From the NCBI GenBank assembly GCA_017437785.1, contig JAFRXH010000046.1:1-64000 (forward strand): 64,000 nucleotides of DNA. Reading direction: 5' to 3'. The notes below the pieces were generated by a model. That model was not told where the DNA came from. It searched no databases and saw only the letters and a program-made list of their open reading frames with translations. Positions 8,028 to 62,060 of the stretch are shown here, in pieces. This DNA comes from Lachnospiraceae bacterium. Lineage in GTDB: Bacteria; Bacillota; Clostridia; Lachnospirales; Lachnospiraceae. The translations under genes and the position numbers were made by a program. Positions within the stretch are counted from its first letter, which is position 1. Every line of letters begins with the position of its first letter.

Positions 8028-8035
8028 GAAAATCA

Positions 8036-12781: not shown

Positions 12782-12878
12782 GCGGTATGCAAAAAAATAT
12801 TTTATCCGATGTCACCTTTCGACAGCCTCCGGCGTTCTTAATAATACAGGCGCCTGAAGAAAGGATAAGGAGGCAGAT

Positions 12879-31545: not shown

Positions 31546-34500
31546 TTATACCAGCTGCTGCAGGATATACGGATCCTTTATCTTCTGATCCTCTGCAAAG
31601 AATATGATCTTTGAGAGTACTTCCGCGGTCTTGGGATCATCATCCACAAAAGGCAGGAAGATACGCCCGCGGTGCTGCGAATGTACCGGAAGCACATTGA
31701 TCATCGGGCCGCCTTCCTGATGGATCACGCCGCTGCCCAGATGAACGCTGTAGTTTGCGCGCTCTCCTTTGATCAGTGCATGCGAATCCGTAAACGTCAC
31801 ATTCTTAAGCTTAAACATCGGGATCACGAATTCCGCGATAGCCTTTCTCATCTCGATAGTTGAATGTGACATCTCAGGATCGATCCCGCCGGCATGAGCC
31901 ACGCTGACGGCCAGATCCACATCACGCATTACTTCAGAGAAGATGATATCCGGTATCTCGCTGATCGGCTTATCCTTAAAGGTCTTGCGGTCATAGAAAG
32001 CCACCCACTCCAGTGTAGGCGCTTCGATATCGCTGGGTGAGAACCAGTCTGCCAGCGCATATATCGTTGCGATCAGGTTTTCTTTATAATATACCTTCTG
32101 CAGTCCTTCATCCGCATCCGCAACCCATCTGCGGTTTCGAAGCGTTCCCACAGTGATCTTCGGATTGATCTGGTTACCCGCATAGCGTTCGCTCCTTACC
32201 TGCTGCATCTCATCCTCCGTCTTGATATACAGCTCACGGAAGATCTGCTTAAACGGCTGACGGATCTGTTTTTCAAAGCAGATCTTCTGGAATTCATGCC
32301 ATCTTCCGGCCTTCCACAGATGATACGGGTGTGCCACCAGAAGTCTTTCCTGCGCCTTCAGTCCCGCATCTTTGATATCCGCAGCAAAGCCGAAGAAATC
32401 GCTGTCCGCGCTCTTATAGAGCAGACTCTTTACTATCGCACCGGATACCGGATCTTCGCTCAGATCCAGGATCTCCTCTGCCAGATACTGTGTCTCATTC
32501 TCCATCGCCTCTTCCAGCATCTTTTTGGTCCTGCGGTATTGCTCGGTGAAAGTCTTCTTTGCTTCCTGTATATCCAGTACATATTCATCCTTCTTGATAG
32601 CGGCAGGCAGGGATTTAAGCTTCTTGCCTGCTTTCTCTGCAGCCACGCTCACCTTGCCGTCTTCGTCCGCTTCCAGATACAGCGTATATTCGCCCACTTC
32701 GTGCGGCGTAAAGAAGCCCAGCAGCTCCGAAGCGATCTCCCTCTCCATTTTGAGGATAAATCTCGTATCATCGTCGTAACCGGACGCTTTGGCCAGATTC
32801 TTGACAGCCATTTCCGATGCCGCTTTTTCACTGGCTCTTCTCTGTGCGCCGAACTGTTTTGATCCCTTTAAGAATTTCTGTATGAAAGCATAGCGGTTTT
32901 TGATCTCTTTACTCTCTGCCGGGATCAGCGCATAGGCCATCAGCAGGTCTTTATTCCTTTTATCTTCAATCTGTTTCTCGGTTTCTTTTGCATCCATCTT
33001 GCCGACAGCCGCATCGGAATATTTTCTGGCTCTGGTATGCTTCGCTCCGTCGGATATGTACTTGGCTGCTTTGTAGATCTCATTAAAGCGTTTATCTCCG
33101 AGCAATTTATATACTTCCTTAAACCAGTCGATATCAAAAGCTCCGATATTTAATTCTTCTTCCGTAAGCGGCGTGTACTTCGCGATCATCGCTGCTTTCT
33201 TGTCATCGAACTTTTCGTTCATATGCGCCATGAAATAATAGCAACCGGAGGTAAAGCCGTCCCATCCCAGATACTCATTGATCACCGGCAGCCACTCCGG
33301 CGAATACAGGCCCGCTTCGATCAGGCGCGATTCTTTGATATCTGTTCCCTTTACCAGCTTCTTAAGTTCCTTTGCCTGTTCTTTCACATCTCCGTCCTTT
33401 GGATCCGGGATACATATACACAGCAGGTGGGACAGGCTTTCTTTTTTGGAGACCGTGCGGTTTCCATATCCATAATAATAATAGATGGAGCGGTCCAGTG
33501 CATCGTTTCCCAGTGCGAGCAGGATCCGAACAAAATACTTCAGCCCATAGATCCGTTTCATGGAAAGCAATGCTTTGGAGTATTCCGTTTCCGTATCCCC
33601 GCGCACCAGTTCACGGTCCAGTACCAGAGACGCGATATTGTCATAGCATTCTCCGGCAATTTCCAGCTTTTTGCTGTCTGTTTCCGAAAGATTATTCAGA
33701 TCGATCTCGTCGTATTTTCTCTTAAACAGATTCTCCAGAGCAGCCCGCTGTTTGTACGCCGTATTGCCTGCCCGGCCCCTGGTCGATATACTTTTATCCG
33801 CTTCCCGCACACAGCATATCAACGAAGATATCCTTTCCAGTGTATCTTCCAGAAGATCTGCATCCAGGATCTTTTTGTACATAAAATCTTTGGAGATATA
33901 TCCTGCGACTACCGCGCTGATATAGTCTCCGAGAAGCGGCGTATAGTAAAGCCTCTTGTTCCTCACATAATATGCCGCTTCCTTCGTCTGAAGCGTAAGC
34001 ATTTTTTTGTAGATCTTCTCTCTGAATTCATACATGACAGGAAAGTTTCGCACATCGGAAGACAGACCTGTCAGAAGACTGCTGACAAAAGGCAGATCCG
34101 TAAACGGGACGGAGTAGGTCTTATCCTTATCCATATTCCTTCTGGTCCACTCCTGCGTCTCTTTATCAGACTTATATTCATAAACCAGGCTGTCCTTACA
34201 GTTGCAGATATAATATGCAAAAAACGCAGCTGTTTTCGCTCTTGTCCCGGCTCCTGCTTTTCTTGCATTACCGCAAAGATGTGACAATATCTTTCGTATA
34301 TGATCGGGGTATTTAAGTTTCAGTGTGCGATATTTAGGATCCGCTCCTCCAAGCACTTTGGACATCAGCGGCTGAAAATGTTCTGCCAGCCCCGTCACCG
34401 TAGGTCTGTATGCGTAATAAGACGTATACATCAGATCGATACGAATAGCCTGTTCCGGAGACATATTCTTCTCATAGAAATCGTCCCACAGATCACTGCA

Positions 34501-36867
34501 GGCCAGATCCCCTACTTTTCCGTCTTTCCACTCGCTGCCCAGTCCGTTTTTAAGAAGTACCGGTCCGTTATAATTCTGATATTCCCGTTCCTTATTTGCC
34601 TCGATCAGATCATCCAGTTTTTTGATCACTTCCACGTCTGACTTTTCCGTGGCTCCGCCTGCGATCGCTTTCTTTACTCCTTCAGCAAGAGCTTTAAGTC
34701 CTTTCTTTGCCCCCGGCAGAACATCCGTTACTTTCGCCTCCGGGAATATCTGCAGATAGGCTTCGGCACATTCACGCAGATATTCTTCATCAAACACCGG
34801 CGCATACTCTGCGCTCTCGTCATAAAAATCTTTTGCTTCCGTCTTTGCCTCTGCTGCAGTCCCGCAGATCTCGTGGATCAATATCGTTTCTTTGGAAGTC
34901 GGATCCTTCACCAGGCTCACCAGTTCCTTTGCCCGGTCAAACTGCGCATCCTTTTCTTCCCTCATCTGCAAAATGATATCCAGCGCGGCAGTTACCTTCT
35001 CCTCTTTACTGTCCGATAAAAGTCTCTCTAACATCTCCTGCTTTTTACCGGCTTCCCTGGTCTTCAAAAAGCCGATCACATTATTGCGAAGATCTTCTTT
35101 CTTAAGGCGCAGCATATCTTCCAGCCGCATGTAGCAGCGCTCCGGAAGCTGTCCTGCGCCGGACGCGATCTCTGAGGGCAGCTCACTCCGGTCCGCCTCC
35201 AGTTCCTGCTTAAGCAATCCATATGCTTCCTCTCTGGTGATCGTTTCGGCATCTGCTATCTCATCCGTCAGCGCATCTAAAAGTTCCGGCGTATCCGGCT
35301 CACGAAGGAGCAGTTCCAGGGAATTCACACGATAACTGTTATAACCGGCTACAGATATCTCTTTAAGCATGCCTGCAGCTTCCGCCATCAGCTTTGCATC
35401 TCGCAGTGCGCTCGCGCAGTAGACGATCCTGCAGACGATATCCGATCGTGTAAGTACCTCTGTATTCCAGGGAAAGACACAGGGACTGAACTCGAAGCCC
35501 TTCTTAGGTGTTTCAGCGAGCAGCTCTTTCAGCAGATCATGATACTCCCTGCACTCCTCTGCACTCGTAAAGTAATCTTTCCATTCCACATGGCCTTTCT
35601 TACGGTACTTATCCTTACTGTTGTAGCGGCTGCTTTTTCCGGGATAGATCACTGCCCGCTCTTTCTCCGCAAAGCCGCGCATGAAGATATGCATGAGCAG
35701 TGCAAGGATCTCTTTGTCATCCTTATATTCCTTAAACATGCGGTTCACAAGCACGTTTTTGTTTTCGTAGGGCACATTGGTATATGCCAGGAAATAACAC
35801 GCCGTAAGCCGCTGATGATGACCGCCTTCCAGACACAGTCTTTCGGCGCGGTCCAGCGCCGGATCGATATCATGCAGTCCGATCGCCCACAGCGCCAGAT
35901 ATATCTGCATACTGTCTTCAGTCGCGAGCATCTCTTCGATCTTTTTATCATCCGAAAGTGCCTGCCTTATCAGTTCCAGATGCTTTCCCGATATCCTGTC
36001 CATATCTTTATCTTCCGCATAGCCCAGGCCGGTAAATACATAGAATGCACGCTTTACGGAAGAGAAGCGGATCAGATCATTTTCCACTACCACATTTAAC
36101 ATATAACGGAAGGCTTCTTCCGTTCCGTAATCCATGTTTTCACAGATGGACTGCCTAAGGCCCTCGGAAAGCCTGGCCGCTACCAGTGTCTTTCCTACCA
36201 TCTCAAACATCTTTTCGTTATGGCTCATCATGATGGCACGGATATACTCTGTCTTCATCATGCCCTCATCACGATAAAAGATGCCTTCCAATACATCTTC
36301 CACTTTTGCATCGCCTTCATCGAGCTTTGCCGCCAGATAGTATTCTCCTTCAAAGGCCGCATACTGCCTTCCCAGATATGCCTGCAGCCGCTCATCCATC
36401 CCGTTAAATGTGATCAGCGTACAGAGATCGCAGCCATAATCCGATAGTTTCCGGTACTGCAACATGATCTCTCCGATACGGTTAAACCCGCGCATGAGAT
36501 TACTCCTGCTGCGGTAAGAGCGGCGGGCGTAACTGTTATGGTCTGACTGCCATTCACATATGCTGTCGATACTTTTATAAAAATACGGGATCAGTTCTTT
36601 TGAAATATAATCTTTGAACCTTTTGATATGCTCTTTGAAATACAAAGACGGTTTTTCATTTTCCTGTAAATGTCTGATCAGTCCGTTACGGAATGCATTG
36701 TTTGCGATATCCACATCCGGATATTTCGGCGTATAACGGGTGGCATCCTCAGATGTCAGTATATAATCGCGGATCTCGCCATCCAGCGACATGATGCATT
36801 TTTCGTCTGTCTCCTCAAGTTGTCTGCATACATCGCCTGCTATCCTGCTGCGTTCCCGTTCGTCCAT
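31546..36867 (-). CDS. DUF4132/DUF5724-type giant protein
   Basis: The 1773-residue protein is related to the DUF4132 family (MolR/YehI-like), whose function is unknown. Residues 1-1350 are helical repeat-rich without obvious catalytic motifs. The C-terminal 450 residues hold the family hallmarks: QPFKQIFRELY, RNRRWVADADEG, SHSTIEMRKAIAEF, HLGSGVIHQEGG, VLPVHSQHRGRIFLPFVDDD and DPKTAEVLSKII. Family members often occur with MoxR ATPases and VWA proteins; none is adjacent here, although a VWA-like remnant lies at 5435-5779. GGGGGG precedes ATG 36867. No signal or membrane helix is seen. Confidence 0.8.
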   Translation of the reverse strand: MDERERSRIAGDVCRQLEETDEKCIMSLDGEIRDYILTSEDATRYTPKYPDVDIANNAFRNGLIRHLQENEKPSLYFKEHIKRFKDYISKELIPYFYKSIDSICEWQSDHNSYARRSYRSRSNLMRGFNRIGEIMLQYRKLSDYGCDLCTLITFNGMDERLQAYLGRQYAAFEGEYYLAAKLDEGDAKVEDVLEGIFYRDEGMMKTEYIRAIMMSHNEKMFEMVGKTLVAARLSEGLRQSICENMDYGTEEAFRYMLNVVVENDLIRFSSVKRAFYVFTGLGYAEDKDMDRISGKHLELIRQALSDDKKIEEMLATEDSMQIYLALWAIGLHDIDPALDRAERLCLEGGHHQRLTACYFLAYTNVPYENKNVLVNRMFKEYKDDKEILALLMHIFMRGFAEKERAVIYPGKSSRYNSKDKYRKKGHVEWKDYFTSAEECREYHDLLKELLAETPKKGFEFSPCVFPWNTEVLTRSDIVCRIVYCASALRDAKLMAEAAGMLKEISVAGYNSYRVNSLELLLREPDTPELLDALTDEIADAETITREEAYGLLKQELEADRSELPSEIASGAGQLPERCYMRLEDMLRLKKEDLRNNVIGFLKTREAGKKQEMLERLLSDSKEEKVTAALDIILQMREEKDAQFDRAKELVSLVKDPTSKETILIHEICGTAAEAKTEAKDFYDESAEYAPVFDEEYLRECAEAYLQIFPEAKVTDVLPGAKKGLKALAEGVKKAIAGGATEKSDVEVIKKLDDLIEANKEREYQNYNGPVLLKNGLGSEWKDGKVGDLACSDLWDDFYEKNMSPEQAIRIDLMYTSYYAYRPTVTGLAEHFQPLMSKVLGGADPKYRTLKLKYPDHIRKILSHLCGNARKAGAGTRAKTAAFFAYYICNCKDSLVYEYKSDKETQEWTRRNMDKDKTYSVPFTDLPFVSSLLTGLSSDVRNFPVMYEFREKIYKKMLTLQTKEAAYYVRNKRLYYTPLLGDYISAVVAGYISKDFMYKKILDADLLEDTLERISSLICCVREADKSISTRGRAGNTAYKQRAALENLFKRKYDEIDLNNLSETDSKKLEIAGECYDNIASLVLDRELVRGDTETEYSKALLSMKRIYGLKYFVRILLALGNDALDRSIYYYYGYGNRTVSKKESLSHLLCICIPDPKDGDVKEQAKELKKLVKGTDIKESRLIEAGLYSPEWLPVINEYLGWDGFTSGCYYFMAHMNEKFDDKKAAMIAKYTPLTEEELNIGAFDIDWFKEVYKLLGDKRFNEIYKAAKYISDGAKHTRARKYSDAAVGKMDAKETEKQIEDKRNKDLLMAYALIPAESKEIKNRYAFIQKFLKGSKQFGAQRRASEKAASEMAVKNLAKASGYDDDTRFILKMEREIASELLGFFTPHEVGEYTLYLEADEDGKVSVAAEKAGKKLKSLPAAIKKDEYVLDIQEAKKTFTEQYRRTKKMLEEAMENETQYLAEEILDLSEDPVSGAIVKSLLYKSADSDFFGFAADIKDAGLKAQERLLVAHPYHLWKAGRWHEFQKICFEKQIRQPFKQIFRELYIKTEDEMQQVRSERYAGNQINPKITVGTLRNRRWVADADEGLQKVYYKENLIATIYALADWFSPSDIEAPTLEWVAFYDRKTFKDKPISEIPDIIFSEVMRDVDLAVSVAHAGGIDPEMSHSTIEMRKAIAEFVIPMFKLKNVTFTDSHALIKGERANYSVHLGSGVIHQEGGPMINVLPVHSQHRGRIFLPFVDDDPKTAEVLSKIIFFAEDQKIKDPYILQQLV

Positions 36868-50593: not shown

Positions 50594-51967
50594 ATGTTCA
50601 AAGGAAGTCTGATAGCAAAAGATAAACAATTCTATAAGGCGGTGGCTGCGATAAGCATACCTATAACCCTGCAGTCGCTCATAACCACCGGCGTTAACAT
50701 GATGGATACCATCATGATAGGTAAGATAGGCCAGACTCAGCTTTCGGCAGTCTCCCTTGCCAATCAGTTCATATCGGTATTCCAGATATTCTGCATGGGT
50801 ATAGGAATGGGGGCATCTGTGCTGGTTTCCAGATATTACGGTATGCAGGATAAAAAATCCCTTAAAAACACTGTAGTGATAATGGTAAGGCTCTGTCTTG
50901 CATTATCATCCGTATTCTGTCTGGCCACACTGCTCCTGCCTGAACAGATAATGCGTATATATACCGAAGAAGCTCCTATCATCAAATGCGGTATCAATTA
51001 CTTAGACTGGTCCGTTGTGACCTACTTCCTGCTGTCGCTCTCGCTTACCTGTACCATAATACTGCGTAACGTGGGAATGGTGCAGATCCCGCTGATAACA
51101 TCGATCGCAGCTTTCTTTATCAATGTCGGGGCCAACTACATATTCATCTTCGGTAAATTCGGTGCACCCAGGATGGAGGAAGCCGGCGCGGCACTGGGTA
51201 CGCTGATAGCCAGGATCTTTGAATTCTGCGTTATCTGCGGTTATCTGTTCCTTCGTGATACGCGAATAAATATACGGATCAGGGATCTGTTTGCCAAGGT
51301 CGGAAGACTATGGAATGAATATATCAGGATAAGCATCCCCGTGCTCATAAGCGACGGTATACTGGCTCTTGGAAACAACTCCGTAGCCATGGTAGTAGGA
51401 CGTCTGGGTGAAAACTTCGTTGCCGCAAATGCCGTAACTACCGTAACGCAGATGCTCGCATCAGTTGTGATACAGGGCTTTTCACAGGCCGGCTGCATTA
51501 TCACCGGAAAGACACTTGGTGAAGGTGATAAAGAAAAAGCCCAGGAACAGGGTTATGCTTTCCTGGGGCTGGGTCTGTTCTTTGGCTTACTGGCAGGCGG
51601 TATAGTACTGCTCATCTCACAGCCCATGATCAATGCCTATAATCTTCTGGAAGAGACCAGGCATATCGCTTCCCAGCTGATGCTCTCCATAAGCATGATA
51701 ATCGTATTCCAGGCTACCAACAGCATAATGACAAAAGGCGTGCTGCGCGGCGGCGGAGATACAAAGATACTGATGCTGGCAGACAATCTCTTCCTGTGGG
51801 TAGTATCCCTGCCTCTGGGTATACTGGCCGGTCTGGTATTCCACTTACCCGCTTTCTGGATCTACTTCTGCTTAAAGTCCGATCAGGTATTAAAGACCAT
51901 ATGGTGCGTTATCAGATTAAACAGCGGTAAATGGATCAAGAAGATAAAGAGCGATAAAGAACTTTAA
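50594..51967 (+). CDS. MATE-family efflux pump
   Basis: The 457-residue protein has 12 hydrophobic helices in two halves, with MATE motifs (MMDTIMIGKIGQTQLSAVSL, RYYGMQDKKS, KGVLRGGGDTKIL). It should export drugs or metabolites. I use ATG 50594 (MFKGSLIAKD...), as GGCAGG sits upstream; the GTG at 50570 lies nine bases after a TATAAT (50555-50560) and is less likely. Its last bases overlap the convergent lipoprotein gene by four. It differs from the MATE at 41407. Confidence 0.92.
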   Translation: MFKGSLIAKDKQFYKAVAAISIPITLQSLITTGVNMMDTIMIGKIGQTQLSAVSLANQFISVFQIFCMGIGMGASVLVSRYYGMQDKKSLKNTVVIMVRLCLALSSVFCLATLLLPEQIMRIYTEEAPIIKCGINYLDWSVVTYFLLSLSLTCTIILRNVGMVQIPLITSIAAFFINVGANYIFIFGKFGAPRMEEAGAALGTLIARIFEFCVICGYLFLRDTRINIRIRDLFAKVGRLWNEYIRISIPVLISDGILALGNNSVAMVVGRLGENFVAANAVTTVTQMLASVVIQGFSQAGCIITGKTLGEGDKEKAQEQGYAFLGLGLFFGLLAGGIVLLISQPMINAYNLLEETRHIASQLMLSISMIIVFQATNSIMTKGVLRGGGDTKILMLADNLFLWVVSLPLGILAGLVFHLPAFWIYFCLKSDQVLKTIWCVIRLNSGKWIKKIKSDKEL

Positions 51968-53022
51968 GGCATATCTTCGGAAAGTGTATAAGCATCATCA
52001 TATACCGGATCTATCACATTGTTTTTAACCATGTTACGCATGGCATCGTAACGCTCGCCTTCCCTCCAGCCCTGATCGACCGAGCCGTAACCGCTCGTGA
52101 TCACTTTACAGTCGGGATACAGCTGTTTAAGCTCATCTATCTCTTCCTGTGGTATCGATGTGTAATACACCCAAAGCTTCTTAAGCTGCGGCAGATCCCT
52201 TATCCCGTCTATACTCTTTACAGGATTATGACAGATATTAAGATCCTCCAGCTCTTTTAAGTCCTTCAGTGCGCTTACATCCTCTATGCTGTTTGCGAAC
52301 AATTCAAGATAACGCAGCTTCTTACAATAGCTTATCGGCGTGATATCCTTAAGCCTTACTCCGCTGCCGGCATATGAAAAATTATCTACCAGTATAAGTA
52401 TCTTAAGCTCCGGCATGTACTTAAGAAAACTAAGATCCGAGATATAATTATGCCCAAGGTCCAACGCCACCATATCCGTACAGTAACGCAGATACTGTGC
52501 CTCATCGTTATCTATCCTGGGATCGGCTTCACTCGCACGCAGTGTCGAAAAACCTACCGTATCAGTAGGTATCGTCCACTTTTTGATCTTCAGATCCCAT
52601 ATGATACGTATACCGGGATGGGTATCCTGAAGATCTGCATAGTCTGCATTGCCCAGGCCGTTATCCTTCATCCTGACCTGTTTCAGATCAGTCAAAGAAT
52701 CAAAAAACGCTCCCACATCAAGACCGCTTAAGTCAATCCCGGACAGATCAAGCGTCTTTACATCGCTCAGCACACACAGATCCCCCAGATACACTTCATG
52801 CGGCGGGATATCGGTAGGGGTGGCAGTCGGGATACTGATATATCCTGTAACGCCTTTATCTTCCGATACACCGTCTTTATTTACTTCATCGGCAGAAACT
52901 GCTTGCATAGCGCTCTGCGCCGCTTCGGAAGGATCTTTCGCAGGCGCAGCTGTATCATTGCGCGTACACGCGCACAGTGCAGCGGTCATAACGATCAAAT
53001 ATATCAAATGTTTAAGCTTCAT
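51964..53022 (-). CDS. Leucine-rich-repeat lipoprotein
   Basis: A lipoprotein signal (lipobox LCAC, Cys19) is followed by a Thr/Ala/Pro-rich linker (about 20-75) and leucine-rich repeats (about 80-300; CTDMVALDLGHNYISDLSFL, KKLRYLELFANSIEDVSALK, KELEDLNICHNPVKSIDGIR). It should stand on the outer face and bind a protein or polymer. It is the last gene of the radical SAM operon, overlapping the preceding acyltransferase stop by 11 bases. In the operon it may present, or bind, the product. Confidence 0.85.
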   Translation of the reverse strand: MKLKHLIYLIVMTAALCACTRNDTAAPAKDPSEAAQSAMQAVSADEVNKDGVSEDKGVTGYISIPTATPTDIPPHEVYLGDLCVLSDVKTLDLSGIDLSGLDVGAFFDSLTDLKQVRMKDNGLGNADYADLQDTHPGIRIIWDLKIKKWTIPTDTVGFSTLRASEADPRIDNDEAQYLRYCTDMVALDLGHNYISDLSFLKYMPELKILILVDNFSYAGSGVRLKDITPISYCKKLRYLELFANSIEDVSALKDLKELEDLNICHNPVKSIDGIRDLPQLKKLWVYYTSIPQEEIDELKQLYPDCKVITSGYGSVDQGWREGERYDAMRNMVKNNVIDPVYDDAYTLSEDMP

Positions 53023-54049
53023 CTTTAAATACCCTGTATTCGGGGAACGAATACTTATACTCCAATACAGATTTAAAAGCCATAGCCAGAAAGTTTATCA
53101 CTGGATTTGAATGGTGCGCATAAAAATAACGTTTTTCCAGCAGCGCACCGAATTTAAGCTTGGTCTTTTCGGAAGTCTGTCCAAAGTCTATCTGTTTACA
53201 CCCGTGCTCTATGGCATAAGCGACGATATTGTATAGCATAAACCAGTACAGATCGGCATTGCATTCAGAGTCTTTATACTCCATACCGCAGAGCATGAAT
53301 ACCAGTTCATCACCGTTCACCTTAAGCAGTACAAATCCCAGAGGCTTGTCATCTCTTAAAAATACGATCTTTTCACCTTCTGTTTTATCGAAGAATCCCT
53401 TCGAAAGGCATTCAAGCTTATACTCCGATCTTTCATAAGTCTGCAGATACAAAGGATGTACATCGATACTGTCATCACTTATCCTTCGCATGCTGATATC
53501 ACTGCAGTTTTTGACAGCAAGATTGATACGCCGTCTGTAAGGGCTTCTTAATGCACGCATGTATGCACAAACAGTATCCATATCATCTCTGAACTTCAGC
53601 CTGCAGGTCGGAAGAGTTTCCCCGAACACCATTCCCTTCATGCGAAACGGCATGTCTGCATTAAGCACCAGCTTACAGCCCTTTATAGTCTTTATGTATT
53701 CCAGCATCCACTCAGGATCGTTTGTTATATATCCGCTGCAGCTCAGTGAACAAGGAAAAGCGATAGTCTGCAGATTGATAAACAGCCTCGCCTTTCCGAA
53801 AGTAAACAGATTCATCCTGTTAAGATACGACGTGAAGAACGCATATCTGTCATCGTCCTCTATATAATAGTAACTCTGCTTTAACGGATTGGCATATCTT
53901 AAGAGTTTAAGCATCCCGGCGTTAAAAGGAAATGCCGCATCCATATCATCCGTAAATACTTCCGCGGCAAACCGGCTTTTTTTTATGTATTCATATATCT
54001 GTCCGGGATCATCGGTATGGTATTGGATTAATCTCTTATCATTCTTCAT
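53012..54049 (-). CDS. FemAB/BioF2-like GNAT-fold acyltransferase
   Basis: This 345-residue protein resembles BioF2-like/FemAB-type transferases, which move an acyl or aminoacyl group to an amine or hydroxyl. The middle half carries the family pattern (RSPYRRRINLAVKNC, PLGFVLLKVNGDELVFMLCG) and the C-terminal QIDFGQTSEKTKLKFGA with the conserved DFG. It is cytosolic or peripheral. I use ATG 54049 (MKNDKRLIQ...); an ATG at 54058 also exists. Its start overlaps the last radical SAM gene. As it is co-encoded with five radical SAM proteins, it probably acylates their product. Confidence 0.75.
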   Translation of the reverse strand: MKNDKRLIQYHTDDPGQIYEYIKKSRFAAEVFTDDMDAAFPFNAGMLKLLRYANPLKQSYYYIEDDDRYAFFTSYLNRMNLFTFGKARLFINLQTIAFPCSLSCSGYITNDPEWMLEYIKTIKGCKLVLNADMPFRMKGMVFGETLPTCRLKFRDDMDTVCAYMRALRSPYRRRINLAVKNCSDISMRRISDDSIDVHPLYLQTYERSEYKLECLSKGFFDKTEGEKIVFLRDDKPLGFVLLKVNGDELVFMLCGMEYKDSECNADLYWFMLYNIVAYAIEHGCKQIDFGQTSEKTKLKFGALLEKRYFYAHHSNPVINFLAMAFKSVLEYKYSFPEYRVFKDEA

Positions 54050-54054
54050 ACAGA

Positions 54055-55416
54055 TCACAGTACTATGGCTCTTCGTAATTTGATAAGCAGTACTTTAAGT
54101 ATGTAGAGCACTCCCTTCGCATATTCATTATCCGCATACAAAGATGATCTGCGGTTCTTCCATCCAAGCTTTAAGGACAGTTTATAGTACTCGATCGTAA
54201 AGCGCCATACACTCATATGATCGGGTTTTAACAGACAGTGAAACAGATCCTGCTTCGTCACATCCTTAGTGATCATATCCTTTTCATATTCCCTGTATAT
54301 CGCAGTTCCCTGCATAGGCGTAAATATCGATACCGTCGGGATTATATCCCTTGCCGCTATCCATTTATACAGATCCTTAAAATCCTGCTTTGTCATCTTC
54401 TGGTGAACGATAAAGAGCCCTGCGCAATAGATCCTGTTTTCCGAAAGTATACGGATACATTCCTCGTTTTCCGAAAGAGTGGTGTGTTTATTATATGAGT
54501 CAAGCTCATCATCCTTATTTGCTTCAAGCCCCACCATAACAAGAGCGAGTCCCACTTCTGCCAGTTCCTTTATCAGCTCTTCGTTATGTGCGATAAAATC
54601 GGCTCTCCCGTATATCAGATATTTCTTATGAACGCCGCGTTCTTTAAGCAGGCGTATAAACTCCCTAAGATACCTTGCATCAGTAAGGAAATTATCATCC
54701 GTGATATGTACCGCCGGAACATCAAGCGATGCTATCTCGTCAACAAGACTCTGTGCGCTGCGGCAGGAGTATTTGCCGCTGTTTCTGTTGGTGCAGAAAC
54801 AGAAATTGCAGTTCCCCGGACAGCTGAAAGAATTCTTAACCAATGCCAGCGGTTTAAAACAGAGATATCTGAACCTGTTCTTATTCCTGTAAAAATACGA
54901 TCTGTCGGGAATGGGCAGATCCTCCGGACTCTCTATAACCTTGGGCGTTACCTTCCATTCACCGTCTTCTCTGTAACATATACCTTTTATATCTTTTAAT
55001 TCCGGCGCTCCTTCTTTGCCGTCGATATGATCGATGAGTCTTAACATGTTTTCCAGGCCGCTTAAGTGATATAAGAAATCTGCCTTCGAATCAAAATAAT
55101 TAGCGTAATTGATCTCTACATTGGATCCGCCCAGTATGATCTTTATGGCCGGATCGTATTTTTTGATGATATCGCAATACCTTATCATCAGCTTCTGTTG
55201 TGTGATATAACCTGTAATGCATACTGCATCCGGCTTTTCCCGTTTAAGTTTTTTCTTAAGCGGCATCAGATCGTATCTTCTGTCGTATATCACCGCTTCA
55301 TGCCCATGAGAAGTAAAAAGTGTATAAAGATATTCCATCTCAAGAGCTTCATGCTCTACAAGATAGGTAAAACTGAATATGCCGACCGTCTCGGGTTTTA
55401 TCAGCAGTATCTTCAT
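54055..55416 (-). CDS. B12-binding-type radical SAM protein 5
   Basis: The 453-residue protein has an N-terminal Rossmann-like cobalamin-binding domain (about 1-135) and a radical SAM barrel with the cluster motif C199-PGN-C203-NF-C206, followed by another cysteine. It should cleave S-adenosylmethionine and methylate or couple an unreactive carbon. The C-terminal 90 residues are basic and amphipathic, suggesting membrane contact. It is a paralogue of proteins 1, 2 and 4 (shared FSCP-xx-C, Y-x-RADFI, VGLEA, DSYNKHT). Its start overlaps the previous stop. Confidence 0.85.
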   Translation of the reverse strand: MKILLIKPETVGIFSFTYLVEHEALEMEYLYTLFTSHGHEAVIYDRRYDLMPLKKKLKREKPDAVCITGYITQQKLMIRYCDIIKKYDPAIKIILGGSNVEINYANYFDSKADFLYHLSGLENMLRLIDHIDGKEGAPELKDIKGICYREDGEWKVTPKVIESPEDLPIPDRSYFYRNKNRFRYLCFKPLALVKNSFSCPGNCNFCFCTNRNSGKYSCRSAQSLVDEIASLDVPAVHITDDNFLTDARYLREFIRLLKERGVHKKYLIYGRADFIAHNEELIKELAEVGLALVMVGLEANKDDELDSYNKHTTLSENEECIRILSENRIYCAGLFIVHQKMTKQDFKDLYKWIAARDIIPTVSIFTPMQGTAIYREYEKDMITKDVTKQDLFHCLLKPDHMSVWRFTIEYYKLSLKLGWKNRRSSLYADNEYAKGVLYILKVLLIKLRRAIVL

Positions 55417-56726
55417 CGGTTCTTATATTTCCTGTTAAACATACCCGTCAGCCCCGCCCAGTAGATACGCGGATAATTCACATAATAGAGGAAACGGAAT
55501 TCCATCTCGAACAGCCACATAGGCAGCTTCGAAGGCCTCATCAGGACATGGGTACCGTCGGTTCTTCTGTATTTATAACGATACAGTCTGTCCTTATTCT
55601 CCTCGTATACGGCAGTTCCTTTGAAGGGTATCAGTATACTGAACAATACCCAGATAAGCCCCTCTCTCTTTATGAAGCGGTTTATCTTCATGAAGTCTTC
55701 ATGAGCGAAATCATAATTAATGACAAAAAGTCCCACGCAGAGCATCCTGTATCTGCGCAGTATGGATATCGCTTTTTTGTTGAGTTCAACACTGGAATGC
55801 TTATTATATTTATCGAGAGTACTGTCTTCAACAGCCTCCAGTCCCACAAGGAAATCCCTGAAACCCGCCTTGTATATGAGCGGCATTATATCTTCACACC
55901 TTACTATACTGTCCGCTCTGGAGAATACCATAAAGGTTTTCTTGCAGCCGGCTTTTAGGAGTCTTTTGCAGATCTCCTTAACGCGTTCACGGTTTAAAAG
56001 GAAATCATCATCTATGATAAAGATCTTATCATTATCAAGCTTTATTATCTCATCCACCACATCATCGATGGGGCGCTCTTTATACGTACAGGAATTGAAC
56101 TGTCTGGATATGCAGAATTTGCACTGCTGCGGGCAGGAAAAGCTCGTCTTAAGCACCGAAAAGCAGCCCTTGGCTATAACGCGGTATTTGCTTTTGTTTT
56201 TGAAAAACTGTGTACGATCGGGCCTGATACCGTAATTGCTTATGGGAGTACCCTTTTCATTTATAACCCACTTACCTTTATACTTAAATGCAAAACCCGT
56301 ACATTCCTTTAAAGTCTCTGCATCAAATTCGTTTCTTACAGCCTTACGGAAAGAATCGAGACCGTTATCGTAGCTGACATAATCTATCTCATCCAGGCAA
56401 AAATCCTTATAATTGATATTGACTTCGGGTCCGCCTACGATCACTTTTATCCATGGTCTGGCTTTTTTTAACTTATGTATCAGTTCAATTATATACCACG
56501 CCATATTGGACATCACCGTAAAGCCGACTATTGTGACCCCGTTTTTGTCTACTTTGTTTAACAGCTGCTTAAAGCGCATAAAGGGGCTCACGATACTCTC
56601 ATCAAAGATAAAAGCCCTGTGTTTTTCTGCTTTGACGCAAGCCACCAGATATTCAAGTCCCAGCGGTTCAAGGCTTGCCACACGTTTATCATAATGTACA
56701 CGGACGAACATATATCTGTTTTTCAA
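55413..56726 (-). CDS. B12-binding-type radical SAM protein 4
   Basis: The 437-residue protein follows the layout of its paralogues: cobalamin-type N-terminal domain with LEPLGLEYL, a GGPEVNINYKDF segment, then radical SAM motif C198-PQQ-C202-KF-C205, the FSRADS and VGLEAVEDSTLDKYNKHSS strands, and an amphipathic C-terminus. I place the start at TTG 56726 because AGGAG lies seven bases upstream; the frame upstream to 56789 would include non-homologous residues. It differs from the others by CIS rather than C-x-C after the third cluster cysteine. Confidence 0.82.
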   Translation of the reverse strand: MKNRYMFVRVHYDKRVASLEPLGLEYLVACVKAEKHRAFIFDESIVSPFMRFKQLLNKVDKNGVTIVGFTVMSNMAWYIIELIHKLKKARPWIKVIVGGPEVNINYKDFCLDEIDYVSYDNGLDSFRKAVRNEFDAETLKECTGFAFKYKGKWVINEKGTPISNYGIRPDRTQFFKNKSKYRVIAKGCFSVLKTSFSCPQQCKFCISRQFNSCTYKERPIDDVVDEIIKLDNDKIFIIDDDFLLNRERVKEICKRLLKAGCKKTFMVFSRADSIVRCEDIMPLIYKAGFRDFLVGLEAVEDSTLDKYNKHSSVELNKKAISILRRYRMLCVGLFVINYDFAHEDFMKINRFIKREGLIWVLFSILIPFKGTAVYEENKDRLYRYKYRRTDGTHVLMRPSKLPMWLFEMEFRFLYYVNYPRIYWAGLTGMFNRKYKNR

Positions 56727-56816
56727 TTTGTTTCTCCTTATCGCCGGGATCCTTCTTCTTTGCTTTGACATACACGCTAAATATATCATTCCGCGGAGTG
56801 CAGCAGCTAAGGACAG

Positions 56817-58136
56817 TTAAATGATATTAGGTACTATGCCATGTTTTATATGATACCTGTAGAAAAGATTAACCCCAAGATAAAATATCGCATTAACCGG
56901 TCTTTTAAGAAAGCCCGTGCTGAATATGGTACGCTTAAGTATAGAACGGTATGAGTACACTTTATTGTACAGATCCCAGTATGCCTTCGTCAGTTCCTCC
57001 GGTGTCATATTCTTCGGATAATGCACGGCTTCACAGGAATTATAGGAATACATATCGGTATTATAGATGCGGTCCTGCTGCTTCATCTCCTCATAATACT
57101 GTGTGCCCGGTATAGGCGTTAGAATATAGAAACGCGGGACCACTATCTTGTTATCTTCAATAAACTTAGCCGTATCCCTTATGGATTCAAGGGTATCTCC
57201 CTCTGCACCCACCACCATCTCGGTCGAAATATCGATCCCGTGTTTACGTATGATGGCAAGCTGTTTACTGTATTCGTCGGGATGCGCCCAGCCTTTCTGC
57301 ATTCCGAGCAGGCTTTCACGGCTGATGCTCTCAAGTCCGAAGCTCATTACATAACAGCCGCTCTGCGCCACTGCGGTAAGCAGTTCTTCATCCTTTGCTA
57401 TATCCACGGAGCACTGTGTCATCCAGTGCATCTTAAGCTTCTTTATCTCCCTGCACAGCTCAAGCGAATAATCCCTGTTTGAAAAAAGATTATCGTCCAA
57501 TAAAAGGAACTGTTTAAATCCCAGTTCTTTTACCCTTTTAATATCCCTTATAACATCAGGGATACTGCGTTTTAGATACTGCCCTTTATACAGACAGTAT
57601 ATCGAACAGAAGCTGCAGGTCTTTGTGCAGCCGCGCCCCGCCTGCACGGGAAGGAAATTGCCTATCTTTTTATTGAGTATCAGCTCGTACCTTGGAAGAG
57701 GCGTTTCAAGTTTTGTGAGTTTCTTTTTGTAGAAATCCTTCATGGTGCCGTTAAGATAATCATTTATCATCTCGCCCCAGGTTTCTTCCGAATCACCTAT
57801 CATTACGCTGTCGCAGTATTTCTTTGCTTCTTCCGGCATCAGCGATACCATATAGCCGCCAAGGATCACCGTCTTTCCCTGTTCCTTAAATTTCTTTGCT
57901 ATATCTATCGTGCGCATAACGGCATGCCCCATGCTGCTTATTCCTATAAGCTCCGCATCGGTATCAAAATCAACATCCTCTATGGTCTCGTAACAGATCT
58001 CCACTTCAAAATCAGGCGGTGTAAGTGCTGCCAGAAGCGGCAGTGCAAGCCCCACAAAATAGAGTCTTTTTTTCTTTACCAGCTTGCCGTACTGATCATA
58101 AGGCGTGGGCTGTATCAGCAGTATCTTTTTCTTCAT
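56817..58136 (-). CDS. B12-binding-type radical SAM protein 3, distinct subtype
   Basis: This 439-residue protein is the divergent member of the five. The cobalamin-type N-terminus ends in GYMVSLMPEEAKKYCDSVMI, the radical SAM motif is C170-TKT-C174-SF-C177 inside GRGC, and the barrel strands read LLLDDNLFSNRDY and MSFGLESISRESL. The C-terminal part resembles the DUF4070 region of hopanoid-type B12 radical SAM methylases. It lacks the FSCP motif of its neighbours, so it probably performs a different step. It starts three bases after the preceding stop. Confidence 0.85.
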   Translation of the reverse strand: MKKKILLIQPTPYDQYGKLVKKKRLYFVGLALPLLAALTPPDFEVEICYETIEDVDFDTDAELIGISSMGHAVMRTIDIAKKFKEQGKTVILGGYMVSLMPEEAKKYCDSVMIGDSEETWGEMINDYLNGTMKDFYKKKLTKLETPLPRYELILNKKIGNFLPVQAGRGCTKTCSFCSIYCLYKGQYLKRSIPDVIRDIKRVKELGFKQFLLLDDNLFSNRDYSLELCREIKKLKMHWMTQCSVDIAKDEELLTAVAQSGCYVMSFGLESISRESLLGMQKGWAHPDEYSKQLAIIRKHGIDISTEMVVGAEGDTLESIRDTAKFIEDNKIVVPRFYILTPIPGTQYYEEMKQQDRIYNTDMYSYNSCEAVHYPKNMTPEELTKAYWDLYNKVYSYRSILKRTIFSTGFLKRPVNAIFYLGVNLFYRYHIKHGIVPNII

Positions 58137-58139
58137 GCG

Positions 58140-59471
58140 TCAGAACCAGCCCTTCTTTTTAGTATCATACGCGGTGCCCAGCATCGCTCTTACGATTATC
58201 TTCGGATAAGTAACGGCATGCAGCCAGTAATAGCGCAGCATGAATTCGACCGACGACATATTGGTAGGCTTAAGTGTAAGATGCGTACCGTCCAGTCTCC
58301 ATGATTTAAAATGTATCAGCTTATCCTTATACTCATCATATGCATCCGTGCCTTTATACGGCGTAAAAATACCAAACACTACCCATAAGAGATTGTTCCC
58401 CTTGACAAACTGAAGAAGCTTTCTAAAATCATCCCTCGTGGCCGTATAGTTTATAACAAACAATCCGTTGCATACCAGTCCTGCATCACGCAGGTTTTTT
58501 ATCGCCATTATATTTTCATTTCTTGAGGTCTGTTTATTGTACTCATCCAGAGTCTCATCGGATATAGCTTCCAGTCCCACCATGATATCGCGGAATCCGG
58601 CCTTGTACGCAAGCGGCAGTATATCGGGATTGGCTGCAAGAAAATCCGCCCTTGCATACGCCATGAACTGTTTCTTCAATCCGCGCCTCAATACTTCATT
58701 GCAGAACGCCCGCACTCTTTCCTTATCAAAAAAGAAAGTATCGTCAACAAACCATATCTTGTCGTGTTTAAGCTCCTCTATCTCATCCACCACTTCCATC
58801 AGATCGCGTTCCGTATACTCGCCGCTGTTCATCTTGGTACAATAGCAGAAGGTACAGTTATAAGGGCAGGAAAAAGAGGCTTTGCTCAGAGCAAACTTTC
58901 CCTTCATAAAGATATAGTTATTCTTAAGTCCTTTATAAAAAGCAGTCCTGTCGGGCTTGGTGATAAAGCCGCAGACAGGCGCTCCCTTTTCTTTTATGAT
59001 CCACTTTCCGTTTTCTTTATAGCATATGCCGCTCAGATCACGGAGTTTATCGCTCGTATAGCCCTCGCTCCACATCTTCTTAAGTGTCATAAGCCCGTTA
59101 TCGTAATAAACGATATCGATATCATCGGTACAGAATTCCTTATAATTAAGCTCCGCCTCGGGGCCTCCTACCATGATGGTGATGTTTGGAAATCTCTGCT
59201 TAAGCTGGCGCGCACGTTTGATTATGATATCAACCGTATTTGCATTTGCATTAAAACCGATAAAGTCAAACTTTCCGTGCTCTATGCGCCGCACCAGGCG
59301 ATAAAGACGCATAGCCCAGGGATACTGGAATTCATCATGTATCCTGCAATTGATCTTAAGCTCCTTTGCAAGTCCCGCAAGATACTCAAGTCCTAGCGGT
59401 TCCAGATTTGCCACTAAAGATGTGTACTTGGGTCTTATCAGTAATACTCTTGGTTTTTTACGTCCCATCAT
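58140..59471 (-). CDS. B12-binding-type radical SAM protein 2
   Basis: The 443-residue protein has an N-terminal cobalamin-type domain (LIRPKYTSLVANLEPLGLEY, VGGPEAELNYKEF) and radical SAM cluster cysteines 202, 206 and 209 in FSCPYNCTFCYC. Barrel strands (AYARADFLAANPDILPLAYK, MVGLEAISDETLDEYNKQTS) match those of protein 4 closely, suggesting recent duplication. Its ATG overlaps the previous stop (59468-59471), so translation is coupled. The C-terminus is hydrophobic with aromatic residues (YYWLHAVTYPKIIVRAML), perhaps membrane-facing. Substrate unknown. Confidence 0.86.
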   Translation of the reverse strand: MMGRKKPRVLLIRPKYTSLVANLEPLGLEYLAGLAKELKINCRIHDEFQYPWAMRLYRLVRRIEHGKFDFIGFNANANTVDIIIKRARQLKQRFPNITIMVGGPEAELNYKEFCTDDIDIVYYDNGLMTLKKMWSEGYTSDKLRDLSGICYKENGKWIIKEKGAPVCGFITKPDRTAFYKGLKNNYIFMKGKFALSKASFSCPYNCTFCYCTKMNSGEYTERDLMEVVDEIEELKHDKIWFVDDTFFFDKERVRAFCNEVLRRGLKKQFMAYARADFLAANPDILPLAYKAGFRDIMVGLEAISDETLDEYNKQTSRNENIMAIKNLRDAGLVCNGLFVINYTATRDDFRKLLQFVKGNNLLWVVFGIFTPYKGTDAYDEYKDKLIHFKSWRLDGTHLTLKPTNMSSVEFMLRYYWLHAVTYPKIIVRAMLGTAYDTKKKGWF

Positions 59472-60829
59472 CTGCCTCCGATCAGCTTTTTAAAATACTG
59501 CAGATTAACTTTGAACGCGCCCACGCTTAATTTAAGCGTATCATGCAGACCGTATTTTTTTATCATATACCATGCGCTCACGGGATTTACCGTAACCTTG
59601 TAGTAAAGCAGTATGGTATACCAGTAATACATCCTTACAGATATATTATCCGGCTTGACCACCAGGTGCGCCAGATCCCATTTCTCGTATTCGTCTTCCC
59701 TTACTATAAAACGCGGCCTGTACTTTTCGTATATGTCCGTGCCGCGGAGCGGAGTCAGCGGCTGGAGATTTACAAATATAAGTCCCAGCTTTTTGATCCA
59801 GCGGTAGAGCGCATCGAAATCTTTCTTTGTCCAGTCAAGTCCCAGTATGAAAGTCCCGTAACACTCCACATCGTATTTTTTAAGTATAGCTGCGGCCTTT
59901 TCGTTTATAGCCACATTGGTACGTTTGTTGTAATCATCCAGCTGCCTGCTGTCGCAGGATTCAAGCCCCACTATCACGGCCCGCAGCCCCACCTGCTTAA
60001 AGCGCTTTATCACGTCTTCATTTGCTGCTATAAAATCAGCCCTGCCGTAAATAAGATACTTTTTGTGAATGTGGTTTTCTTCCAGCATATCGCAGAACTT
60101 AAGTATGCGGTCGCGTCCCACAAGGAAATCATCATCAACTATATATATCTCTGATTCCTTTATCTGCTTAAGCTCGCAGATTATATCCTCAAGCGTTCTG
60201 GCAAAATACTGATCGTCCGTTATCTGCCTGCAGAAACAGAACTTGCAGTTATACGGACAGCCGAAGGAAGTTTTTATCAGGCTGCAGTTACGGTGGAACA
60301 TGTAGTAATACTTCGCCCTGTATCTTTTAACTTTGTTCCTGTCGGGATAGAGATATTTAAATGTGGTATCCTTTTTGGGCGGCTTGCTACCCGAATGATA
60401 GACACACTCCGGCTCGCTGTTTTCCTTTCCTTCAAGCTTGTTAAGTATCTCAATGAAAGTGCGGATACCGTTAGCGCGGATTATATAATCTATATACTTT
60501 GATTCAAAATCTCCGGGATTGACCTCCGCATGCACGCCGCCGACTATGGTCACTATCTTTTTATCAACGGCCTTTGCCTGCCTTGCGTAATCCTTTATTA
60601 TATTTACGTGTGAAATATAGCCTGTGATGCCCACGACATCAGGCTTAAGACGTTCTACAAACCATGAAACGCTGTGGCGCTCCAGTATCATATCGACAAT
60701 GATACACTTATGTCCCAGCGCCTCGATATTTGAAGATATATACTCAAGCTCGAGAGGCTCGCATATCATCACGTTCTGCAGGCCTATCGTTTCCTTATGT
60801 GGTTTTGGACGGAAGAGAAGTACTTTCAT
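59468..60829 (-). CDS. B12-binding-type radical SAM protein 1
   Basis: The 453-residue protein has a cobalamin-type N-terminal domain (residues 1-130) and a radical SAM barrel with motif C191-PYN-C195-KF-C198 plus C200. The pattern RADFIAANEDVIKRFKQVGL and VGLESCDSRQLDDYNKRTN marks it as a paralogue of 2, 4 and 5. I use ATG 60829 (MKVLLFRPKP...), with GGGTG upstream; a frame to 60889 adds 20 residues over an intergenic repeat. The first 63 bases upstream of its start hold a repeat-like sequence, so it is the most widely spaced gene of the operon. Confidence 0.84.
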   Translation of the reverse strand: MKVLLFRPKPHKETIGLQNVMICEPLELEYISSNIEALGHKCIIVDMILERHSVSWFVERLKPDVVGITGYISHVNIIKDYARQAKAVDKKIVTIVGGVHAEVNPGDFESKYIDYIIRANGIRTFIEILNKLEGKENSEPECVYHSGSKPPKKDTTFKYLYPDRNKVKRYRAKYYYMFHRNCSLIKTSFGCPYNCKFCFCRQITDDQYFARTLEDIICELKQIKESEIYIVDDDFLVGRDRILKFCDMLEENHIHKKYLIYGRADFIAANEDVIKRFKQVGLRAVIVGLESCDSRQLDDYNKRTNVAINEKAAAILKKYDVECYGTFILGLDWTKKDFDALYRWIKKLGLIFVNLQPLTPLRGTDIYEKYRPRFIVREDEYEKWDLAHLVVKPDNISVRMYYWYTILLYYKVTVNPVSAWYMIKKYGLHDTLKLSVGAFKVNLQYFKKLIGGR

Positions 60830-60860
60830 ATAAATTTCACCCGGGACGACGCCCCCTATA

Positions 60861-60890
60861 TCATTCCAGGGAGCGTAGCGACGAAGCATC
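60861..60890. repeat. Repetitive-element-like sequence
   Basis: TCATTCCAGGGAGCGTAGCG (continuing ACGAAGCATC) resembles the widely distributed TCATTC...GAGCGTAGCGACGAA repeat found between genes in many bacteria. It lies between the GNAT gene and the first radical SAM gene. Only one copy is seen in the window. Confidence 0.5.
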
Positions 60891-60892
60891 TT

Positions 60893-61978
60893 TTATAACT
60901 CTTTCTCAAATACTACATACTTCTTATACAATGAATCGCAGGCAGCGCGGCAGAAACTGTTGGAATCGTCATTATCCTCCAGCACCCATGACGTTTCTAT
61001 ACGTGTATATCCCTGCTCTCTGATAAGGTTAAACGCCTTATATATAAGGGCTGCGGGAAGTCCCCGTCCGCGGTAGCCCTTAAGTACGCCATATTCCATG
61101 ACCTTCGCAGTTCTTATCTTTCTGCCCGATATCAGATTCTTAAAAAAATGCTTAGTCCCGAATATGCTACCGCGTGCGGCCAGTTCATTAAAATCCGGAT
61201 ACCACATGATAAAGCCTACCGGTTCTTCATCCTTAAATGCAAAGATCAGGGAATCCTCCTTCATAAAAAGGAACAGCTCTTTAAGCATTTCCTTATCATC
61301 CTCATAATCCCTGCAGTAATAATACTTATGGCTGCTGAAACAGTAATTGTTCAGATCCGTATATATCTTTGAATAAGTATCAAATTGCTTTTTATCAAAG
61401 TAACGGAATTCATAGTTCTTATCTATGCGCTCAATGGCACGTCTGAATCTTTCCAGTCTGTCATCATAATGCTCTACAACATATGAATTAAGGCCTGTTT
61501 CTTCAAAGCCGGCTTTTCTGAAATGATCATTGTAAAACATGGGATTTCCAGGGGACGAAAAGGAATTGCGTTCTTCAAAATGAGAATCCAGAAGTCCCAG
61601 ACCGTAGTTAACATGGCCGTTGAGACCAACGACCATTCTTTTGCAGTTAAGGCGTCTGCCATACTCTTTCGTAAGATCCGTAAGCATGTCTATCGCCTTA
61701 TCCTGATGTGGAAGACTTTCAAAAAAGCATAACTGGATATATTCCGGCAGCTGCGGCGCATACACTATAATACCCTCGCAGAGGATATTGCCGCTGTCGG
61801 AAGAAACATAAACGGGATAATACTTAATATTTTTCGTGAAGTGCAGTTTATCTGAAAAGATCTCGCAGATCATGAAATAGTTATCATCTATATAGCGTCT
61901 GCATCCGCTGTACAGATCCCTTCTGAAACGCAGAAACTCCCTCCGTTCTTTTGCCGTTTTTGCTACAGTAAGCTTCAT
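60893..61978 (-). CDS. GNAT-family acetyltransferase, two-domain type
   Basis: The 361-residue protein belongs to a long GNAT family with an N-terminal pseudo-domain (FFESLPHQDKAIDMLTDLTK, YYPVYVSSDSGN) and a C-terminal GNAT fold with the acetyl-CoA loop YRGRGLPAAL (V-x-x-x-YRGRG). It transfers acyl groups to an amine. It is the first gene of the radical SAM operon, 63 bases ahead of protein 1, with no other gene between, so it probably primes or finishes the same product. No membrane segment is seen. Substrate not known. Confidence 0.8.
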   Translation of the reverse strand: MKLTVAKTAKERREFLRFRRDLYSGCRRYIDDNYFMICEIFSDKLHFTKNIKYYPVYVSSDSGNILCEGIIVYAPQLPEYIQLCFFESLPHQDKAIDMLTDLTKEYGRRLNCKRMVVGLNGHVNYGLGLLDSHFEERNSFSSPGNPMFYNDHFRKAGFEETGLNSYVVEHYDDRLERFRRAIERIDKNYEFRYFDKKQFDTYSKIYTDLNNYCFSSHKYYYCRDYEDDKEMLKELFLFMKEDSLIFAFKDEEPVGFIMWYPDFNELAARGSIFGTKHFFKNLISGRKIRTAKVMEYGVLKGYRGRGLPAALIYKAFNLIREQGYTRIETSWVLEDNDDSNSFCRAACDSLYKKYVVFEKEL

Positions 61979-62034: not shown

Positions 62035-62060
62035 GTCAGCAGCCCATTTGGGCTGCTGAC
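62024..62060 (-). terminator. pta terminator
   Basis: A strong 12-bp stem GTCAGCAGCCCA (62035-62046) with complement at 62049-62060 is followed on the minus strand by a long T-rich stretch. It ends the pta message just before the radical SAM promoter. Confidence 0.9.

Follow-up and report, generated by a model that had tools for sequence, protein, structure and literature searches.

What would an operon make that brings together five B12-type radical S-adenosylmethionine (SAM) proteins and two putative acyltransferases? The question is raised by a stretch of 64,000 nucleotides from a Lachnospiraceae bacterium (assembly GCA_017437785.1, contig JAFRXH010000046.1, positions 1 to 64,000; hereafter the window). 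Eight consecutive open reading frames (ORFs) lie there on the minus strand between 51964 and 61978, encoding, in transcription order, a GNAT-type N-acyltransferase, the radical SAM proteins SAM1 to SAM5, the FemAB-like protein FemX and a leucine-rich repeat (LRR) lipoprotein. Our answer, held at a little less than even confidence, is that the operon, its LRR gene set aside, represents the version found in rumen Lachnospiraceae of a previously undescribed biosynthetic cluster of anaerobes; the product would be an amide, lipid-like or amino-acid-derived compound whose carbons are modified in a series of cobalamin radical steps. The evidence begins with conservation: GNAT, FemX, SAM1 and SAM3 form a core that, nearly always with at least one further B12-type radical SAM gene, is kept and packed as a unit.

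One genome per species was scanned with an alignment of SAM1, and the best 80 of 222 relatives were kept as loci, with genes labelled by custom ORF calling and BLAST. GNAT is present in 72 of these 80 loci, and so is FemX (72 of 80). In 54 loci the labelled genes are flanked on either side by more than 1.5 kb; GNAT is present in 52 of these loci, FemX in 50 and SAM3 in all 54, and 45 carry four to six SAM genes (two SAM genes in two loci, three in seven, four in 28, five in 16 and six in one). Because the 80 loci depend on SAM1, 245 genomes drawn evenly from the class served as a SAM1-independent control. FemX (E ≤ 1e-30), SAM1 (E ≤ 1e-60), SAM3 (E ≤ 1e-100) and a strong GNAT match (at least 326 bits) are found in the identical nine genomes of this draw (the window's own included), on one contig and within ∼9 kb. 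GNAT has 14 matches in the 245 genomes, and the five weaker ones (109–119 bits) are lone genes. Among closer relatives, GNAT is matched in 19 out of 98 genomes (own included) and in 16 out of 35 same-genus genomes, strongly in 15 and weakly in one (G028); the strong same-genus carriers have SAM genes alongside or, at contig ends, on other contigs.

The unit is also tight. Over 460 same-strand neighbouring core pairs in the 80 loci the median gap is −1 nucleotide, and 85% of the gaps are at most 30 nucleotides. Across GNAT, FemX, SAM1 and SAM3, protein distances are correlated, with r of 0.88–0.95 over 59 loci and of 0.76–0.87 over the 33 loci outside the main Lachnospiraceae group, none of 500 permutations being as high; shared organism descent contributes to these correlations. 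When the window was compared with two same-genus relatives, dN/dS was computable in eight out of 14 comparisons (dS 1.1–3.2 there, and saturated in the other six), with values of 0.015–0.075 for core genes (seven out of 13 core comparisons) and 0.095 for the LRR gene. One copy of the cluster (G332:C212) has stops within its GNAT, FemX and SAM1 matches and may be degenerate or badly assembled.

A preliminary description of the window, made from its letters alone, had asked whether all eight genes are conserved as a set. This holds for GNAT, FemX and the SAM genes (in the nine genomes and the 54 loci) but not for the LRR lipoprotein (51964–53022, minus strand; LRR_4 in Pfam), whose gene adjoins the cluster in just a single further genome (G031; one of 80 loci). 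That description had named lost co-conservation of the acyltransferases and the lipoprotein as a point that would count against it, and the lipoprotein alone proved not to be co-conserved. We rejected the lipoprotein as a member of the system on its position beside the cluster in one of 80 loci (LRR genes elsewhere in the genomes were not searched for); because it adjoins the cluster so rarely, the surface-handling step once ascribed to it is without basis.

How is the operon of the window laid out? All seven remaining genes are on the minus strand: GNAT (60893–61978, 361 a.a.), SAM1 (59468–60889), SAM2 (58140–59471), SAM3 (56817–58136), SAM4 (55413–56789), SAM5 (54055–55416) and FemX (53012–54058). 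The ORF list and Pfam bear out the genes, their order and their coordinates as first described, and start codons do overlap preceding stops, by four nucleotides at the SAM1/SAM2, SAM4/SAM5 and SAM5/FemX junctions and by 11 nucleotides at FemX/LRR. The single visible promoter of the same description was not recovered, as a consensus scan gave no site immediately upstream of GNAT. A terminator-like hairpin of the upstream gene (62035–62060, minus strand, 56 nucleotides before the GNAT start codon) sets the operon apart from the preceding gene. SAM1 probably starts 20 codons downstream of the longest-ORF start (at 60829, 453 a.a.), judging by alignment A2, in which seven out of eight other rows begin there or two residues earlier and one (L068) has a long N-terminus. 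The GC content is 43–46% in the operon's three 4-kb bins and 42–48% in the remaining bins; recent transfer, judged by base composition, was dropped as an explanation since the operon falls within the window's range. In the three genomes with GNATs closest to that of the window (G001, G025 and G031, with loci L070, L051 and L053), SAM5 is on another contig beside other genes.

The five radical SAM proteins all match PF04055 (Radical_SAM) above the Pfam cut-off, and four out of five, SAM1 among them, match PF02310 (B12-binding) above its cut-off; SAM3 scores 31.7 bits against 32.1 there, and 34.3 bits, above the cut-off, in a six-frame search. Their domains place SAM1–SAM5 in the cobalamin-dependent radical SAM superfamily, with predicted use of cobalamin. 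They make up five of the 19 radical SAM matches and five of the seven B12-binding matches of the whole genome, and the CxxxCxxC motif is kept in all 297 full-length SAM genes of the 80 loci. SAM2–SAM5 share 23–34% identity with SAM1. The motifs F[SG]CPxxCxFC, VGLE and YNK were found, as previously listed, in SAM1, SAM2, SAM4 and SAM5, SAM3 being without this set; RADF(I/L), listed for the same four, is seen in only three, as SAM4 has RADS instead. No listed NCBIfam family reaches its cut-off with any of the five: the best score per protein is 92–167 bits against cut-offs of 481–650, and the best family is HpnR for SAM1, SAM2 and SAM5, HpnR tied with BchE for SAM4, and PhpK for SAM3.

Did these genes arise by tandem duplication, as had been supposed? 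We rooted on SAM3 a tree of 125 SAM proteins, taken from the window and from 30 of the 80 loci. It resolves into SAM3 (clade B), SAM1 (clade A) and its sister clade C, clade D with SAM5, and clade E with SAM2 and SAM4 (a type of rumen Lachnospiraceae and Acetivibrio). Support is 1.0 for C, 0.945 for D, 0.995 for SAM2/SAM4, high for SAM3, and 0.41 for the 30-sequence SAM1 clade. Across the 31 loci of the tree, SAM1 and SAM3 occur in 30 each, clade D in 28, clade C in 21, SAM2 in seven and SAM4 in six. SAM1, SAM3 and SAM5 each have counterparts of their own in distant clusters, with SAM3 as a far branch, which argues that the majority of the five had already diverged when the cluster spread, and against a recent tandem burst. 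The only sister pair among the five is SAM2 and SAM4, a pair shared with Acetivibrio mesophilus. We thus rejected a single tandem duplication on the tree, with the caution that the SAM1 clade has support of 0.41 and that the root was placed on SAM3; the SAM genes look mostly like old paralogues. That each SAM protein keeps its own lineage across distant anaerobes suggests several distinct, difficult C–H steps on one product.

The two transferases fall, by their family matches, in acyltransferase superfamilies (for FemX, FemAB/Acetyltransf_6). The GNAT of the window matches PF00583 (E = 6.3e-10), as do 45 out of 48 aligned GNAT relatives at E 0.1 (alignment A4, 47 of 71 GNATs, from 72 in all, plus the window). 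FemX matches PF13480 with E = 0.00022 and 21.9 bits, 0.1 bit below the cut-off of 22, and 42 out of 47 aligned FemX relatives match this family at E 0.1 (alignment A3, 46 of 69 length-filtered FemX proteins, from 72 in all, plus the window). NCBIfam gives scattered weak matches for the GNATs (rimI in five out of 48, best 2.2e-4), and a PEP-CTERM-associated FemAB family in 11 out of 47 FemX proteins (best 3.8e-7), for which the window member has 13 bits against a cut-off of 260. The FeeM families PF21926 and PF13444 are not among the 16 families matched by the 48 core GNATs at E 0.1. In PDB sequences, the GNAT profile finds weak matches only (best E = 0.016) and the FemX profile finds none up to E 1.

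The cluster comes in two main architectures. Out of the 80 loci, 37 have a BioC-like methyltransferase gene without SAM2/SAM4, 30 have SAM2/SAM4 without the methyltransferase, five have both and eight have neither. In the methyltransferase form the order is GNAT, FemX, a clade D SAM gene, the methyltransferase, SAM1, SAM3 and a clade C SAM gene (e.g. Alkaliphilus transvaalensis, L136), and the form of the window is that of rumen Lachnospiraceae. One of the five loci with both, L137, is probably mislabelled, as its SAM2-like gene sits in clade D of the tree. In another locus, L159 of A. mesophilus, the methyltransferase, assigned as such by Pfam, is only weakly related (49 bits for the copy in G208), and SAM2, SAM4 and SAM5 form a divergent run beside SAM1, SAM3, GNAT and FemX. 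An acyl ligase gene (PF00501) and a gene for a free acyl carrier protein (ACP; PF00550) lie alongside in many loci of the window's form; 31 out of 80 loci carry the ligase or the ACP, and the serine pattern is kept in all 29 ACPs (29/29).

Other neighbours are diverse. From 44 loci we collected 165 proteins encoded beside or within the cluster and scanned 126 of them with Pfam. The commonest families are ABC_tran and FeeM (four proteins each), followed by PS_Dcarbxylase, DUF4130 and HHH_3 (three proteins each); no family of transporters, regulators or resistance proteins is found more than four times among the 126. In three loci (L142, 6248–7149; L146, 12983–14271; L148, 14159–15393) SAM3 is followed by a gene for a FeeM N-acyl amino acid synthase and then by one resembling phosphatidylserine decarboxylase, after which SAM5 comes in L146 and L148, and in L143 (10825–12541) FeeM and an ornithine-type decarboxylase gene are beside the cluster. 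The frequency of FeeM among the neighbours hints at N-acyl amide chemistry without proving it.

Carriers, as named by their record titles, include Clostridium tunisiense, Geosporobacter, Sedimentibacter, Anaerovirgula, Acetoanaerobium and Thermincola and, outside Bacillota, Kiritimatiellia (L137), KSB1 (L138), Lentisphaerales (L141), Fibrobacteria (L143), Electrothrix (L144) and Gastranaerophilales (L161). The titles of several records bear no metagenome-assembled genome label (A. mesophilus, C. tunisiense, Geosporobacter, A. transvaalensis, Sedimentibacter hydroxybenzoicus and Lachnospiraceae AB2028 and G41), and cultures could thus be examined directly for the product.

What pathway could such a set encode? 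An activated acyl group would come from the ligase and ACP where these are present, their occurrence in relatives pointing to an activated acid, and from house carriers elsewhere. GNAT would then put the acyl group on an amine, and FemX would transfer a second group, acyl or aminoacyl. The cobalamin-dependent radical SAM enzymes may act successively at different unactivated carbons, most likely in C-methylations and in an order we can only infer, and one or more of them perhaps perform a ring- or C–C-forming step; in the methyltransferase form, the class I methyltransferase would add a heteroatom or ester methyl. As the core was not seen to be accompanied repeatedly by genes for a transporter, a precursor peptide or resistance, its product most likely stays inside the cell or in the membrane and would be an amide, either lipid-like or derived from amino acids. 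A bolder version, possible if somewhat doubtful, is that several bacterial phyla share an unrecognised class of amide lipids or lipo-amino acids of anaerobes: a relay of separate cobalamin radical enzymes, mostly four or five, would methylate or link unreactive carbons of a small scaffold built by GNAT and FemAB-like transferases, without ribosomal, nonribosomal peptide synthetase (NRPS) or polyketide synthase (PKS) machinery. If the proposed pathway is real, it would add a biosynthetic logic and perhaps a new class of lipids or metabolites in anaerobes of the gut and of sediments. Co-conserved groups of at least four B12 radical SAM enzymes are, to our knowledge, rare.

Several observations weigh against the proposed amide pathway. 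The 80 loci were chosen by SAM1; two of them (L138 and L144) carry SAM1 and SAM3 without GNAT and FemX, and two others (L086 and L123) lack FemX. The operon of the window has no ligase or ACP alongside, and its own genome holds only weak ligase relatives (best 38.6 bits; C95 and C38). FeeM and the decarboxylases are found in few loci, the classical R/Q-x-x-G-x-G/A donor (CoA-binding) motif is present in only 11 out of 72 GNATs, and a search at the gathering score, covering the window and 14 of the 80 loci, gave no cobalamin riboswitch. The C-terminal stretches of the SAM proteins (cationic and amphipathic in SAM5) are at best a weak sign of work at the membrane. Their scores, with clade medians of 1.59–1.97 and 1.62–2.12 for the window proteins, exceed those of seven out of eight controls (≤1.15), but one control scores 1.81; the controls were picked by motif, as the longest CxxxCxxC ORF in each of eight loci from the genome's 14 other radical SAM matches. 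The score is driven by positive charge: hydrophobic moments (clade medians 0.27–0.45) are within the control range (0.11–0.48), and the C-terminal segments of SAM2 and SAM4 are not hydrophobic. Membrane-binding tails were accordingly downgraded to a weak clue. In C38 of the same genome, 61513–67418 (G000) encodes two AMP-binding relatives and a PP-binding match, apparently another carrier-protein locus.

Other products have to be weighed against the one we favour. The cluster might make a small secreted specialised metabolite, a signal or an antibiotic, from an amino acid or amine that is N-acylated, extended by FemX with a tRNA-derived aminoacyl group and heavily C-methylated. Its patchy presence (the 16 of 35 same-genus genomes, one weakly, and the nine of 245 genomes of the class, strongly) would suit such a metabolite, as would the FeeM and decarboxylase neighbours; we nevertheless consider it rather unlikely, as no transporter, regulator or resistance family exceeds four of the 126 neighbours, and the column identity of SAM3, which averages 69% over 18 rows, would be unusual for a fast-changing metabolite pathway. 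Less likely still is a membrane lipid pathway in which the radical enzymes methylate, cyclise or join the acyl chains of an amide lipid, in the manner of HpnR, GrsA/B or Tes/Mss. None of the NCBIfam families listed scores higher on SAM1, SAM2, SAM4 and SAM5 than HpnR (TIGR04367), the hopanoid C-3 methylase, which has a B12-binding and a radical SAM domain and is matched over most of its length, PS_Dcarbxylase accounts for three of the 126 neighbours, no exporter recurs and the positive charge of the C-terminal stretches points weakly the same way. The scores are 120–167 bits, however (best 166.6, against a cut-off of 650), BchE, a porphyrin enzyme, scores nearly as high, the hydrophobic moments are no higher than in the controls, and no glycerolipid or fatty acid synthesis family besides ACP and ligase recurs in the neighbour scans. 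Mss and Tes are membrane-spanning lipid synthases that couple lipid chains, and Tes is a radical SAM enzyme, according to passages of PMC13274423 and PMC11868695; the former describes the Mss coupling enzyme as having the catalytic architecture of archaeal Tes. Tes is absent from the six PDB sequences that match the SAM1 profile at E 0.01 (Mss was compared by description only), so identity with a membrane-spanning lipid synthase has no support. The preliminary description had named a membrane lipid among its candidate products, and membrane-spanning fatty acids as one possible class; a lipid is possible, but membrane-spanning fatty acids are unsupported. N-glyceroyl alkylamine lipids, a candidate product prompted by passages of PMC13274423, were dropped; in the literature covered, three of the four other papers that use the term are on Thermaceae genomes.

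B12 radical SAM enzymes are common in pathways to ribosomally synthesized and post-translationally modified peptides (RiPPs), and the SAM enzymes here could in principle modify a ribosomal precursor peptide. SAM2–SAM5 do match rSAM_ocin_1, the RiPP radical SAM C-methyltransferase model (TIGR03975), but weakly (29.5–44.9 bits against a cut-off of 281.85; SAM1 is not among the listed matches). The genes overlap or abut, which leaves little room for a precursor gene; besides ACP no family with a median length of at most 110 a.a. occurs in more than three out of 92 sources (ORFs of at least 70 a.a. searched), and no conserved precursor peptide gene was found among ORFs of at least 70 a.a. near the clusters, shorter ORFs not being searched. 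We regard such a peptide as very improbable. A cofactor or tetrapyrrole modification resembling BchE, BchQ or BchR has as slight a chance: the model of BchE (TIGR02026), the anaerobic Mg-protoporphyrin cyclase, which has the same domain order, scores 84–120 bits on all five SAM proteins (best 120.3), but its cut-off is 481.35, and neither a tetrapyrrole context nor any tetrapyrrole family was seen among the recurrent neighbours listed.

The PhpK-type P-methylase (TIGR04479) is the best match of SAM3, with 91.9 bits against a cut-off of 600; HpnJ (TIGR03471) gives SAM3 87.3 bits, the highest of the five, against 577.6, and the ladderane-associated B12 radical SAM family (TIGR04072) gives at most 76.9 bits (SAM3) against 360. 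PDB sequences were compared with the SAM1, SAM3, GNAT and FemX profiles. Among the six matching SAM1, the best are 6fd2 and OxsB; the closest solved structures by sequence for SAM3 are 6fd2 and 9ccb, with matches that span the radical SAM core only. The structure common to both, 6fd2, is apramycin oxidoreductase 4, which we take to be AprD4; the AprD4 family is a radical diol-dehydratase by its NCBIfam model name. The thienamycin and bottromycin pathways also use several B12 radical SAM methylases in one pathway, on other scaffolds; here, in contrast, there are two GNAT-type transferases, and no PKS, NRPS or precursor gene was seen. Passages of PMC11796369 identify 9ccb as MgmA, which methylates a glutamine of a protein. 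No paper describing the set was found among the open-licence literature listings inspected, and the statement in the preliminary description that no known pathway has this make-up stands in that none matched among the literature and families compared. By sequence comparison the cluster appears to be an undescribed pathway type, and not a HpnR, BchE, RiPP or Mss/Tes system.

Some loci carry further genes within or near the cluster. In L110 (14125–16219), L119 (7305–9435) and L128 (2460–4597), genes for an ABC-type ATPase, a CobW/HypB/UreG-type GTPase and an Fe–S protein lie between a SAM gene and SAM3; the module was typed by Pfam in L110 and by likeness in L119 and L128, and is perhaps a service module for metal or corrinoid. 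In L057 (2965–3738, G010) a gene between SAM4 and SAM5 encodes a lipoprotein-like protein that has a ribonuclease domain (PF00545), and L065 (8205–8978) encodes a protein of the same length with no Pfam match. L073 (G084:C1:1484001-1503000) holds at 4671–13656 a separate array of five radical SAM genes, related to SAM3 at 29–34%, with proteins of 234, 523 and 353 a.a. encoded among and after them, which may be another undescribed multi-SAM cluster. Elsewhere in the window, an ORF of 1773 a.a. lies on the minus strand at 31546–36867.

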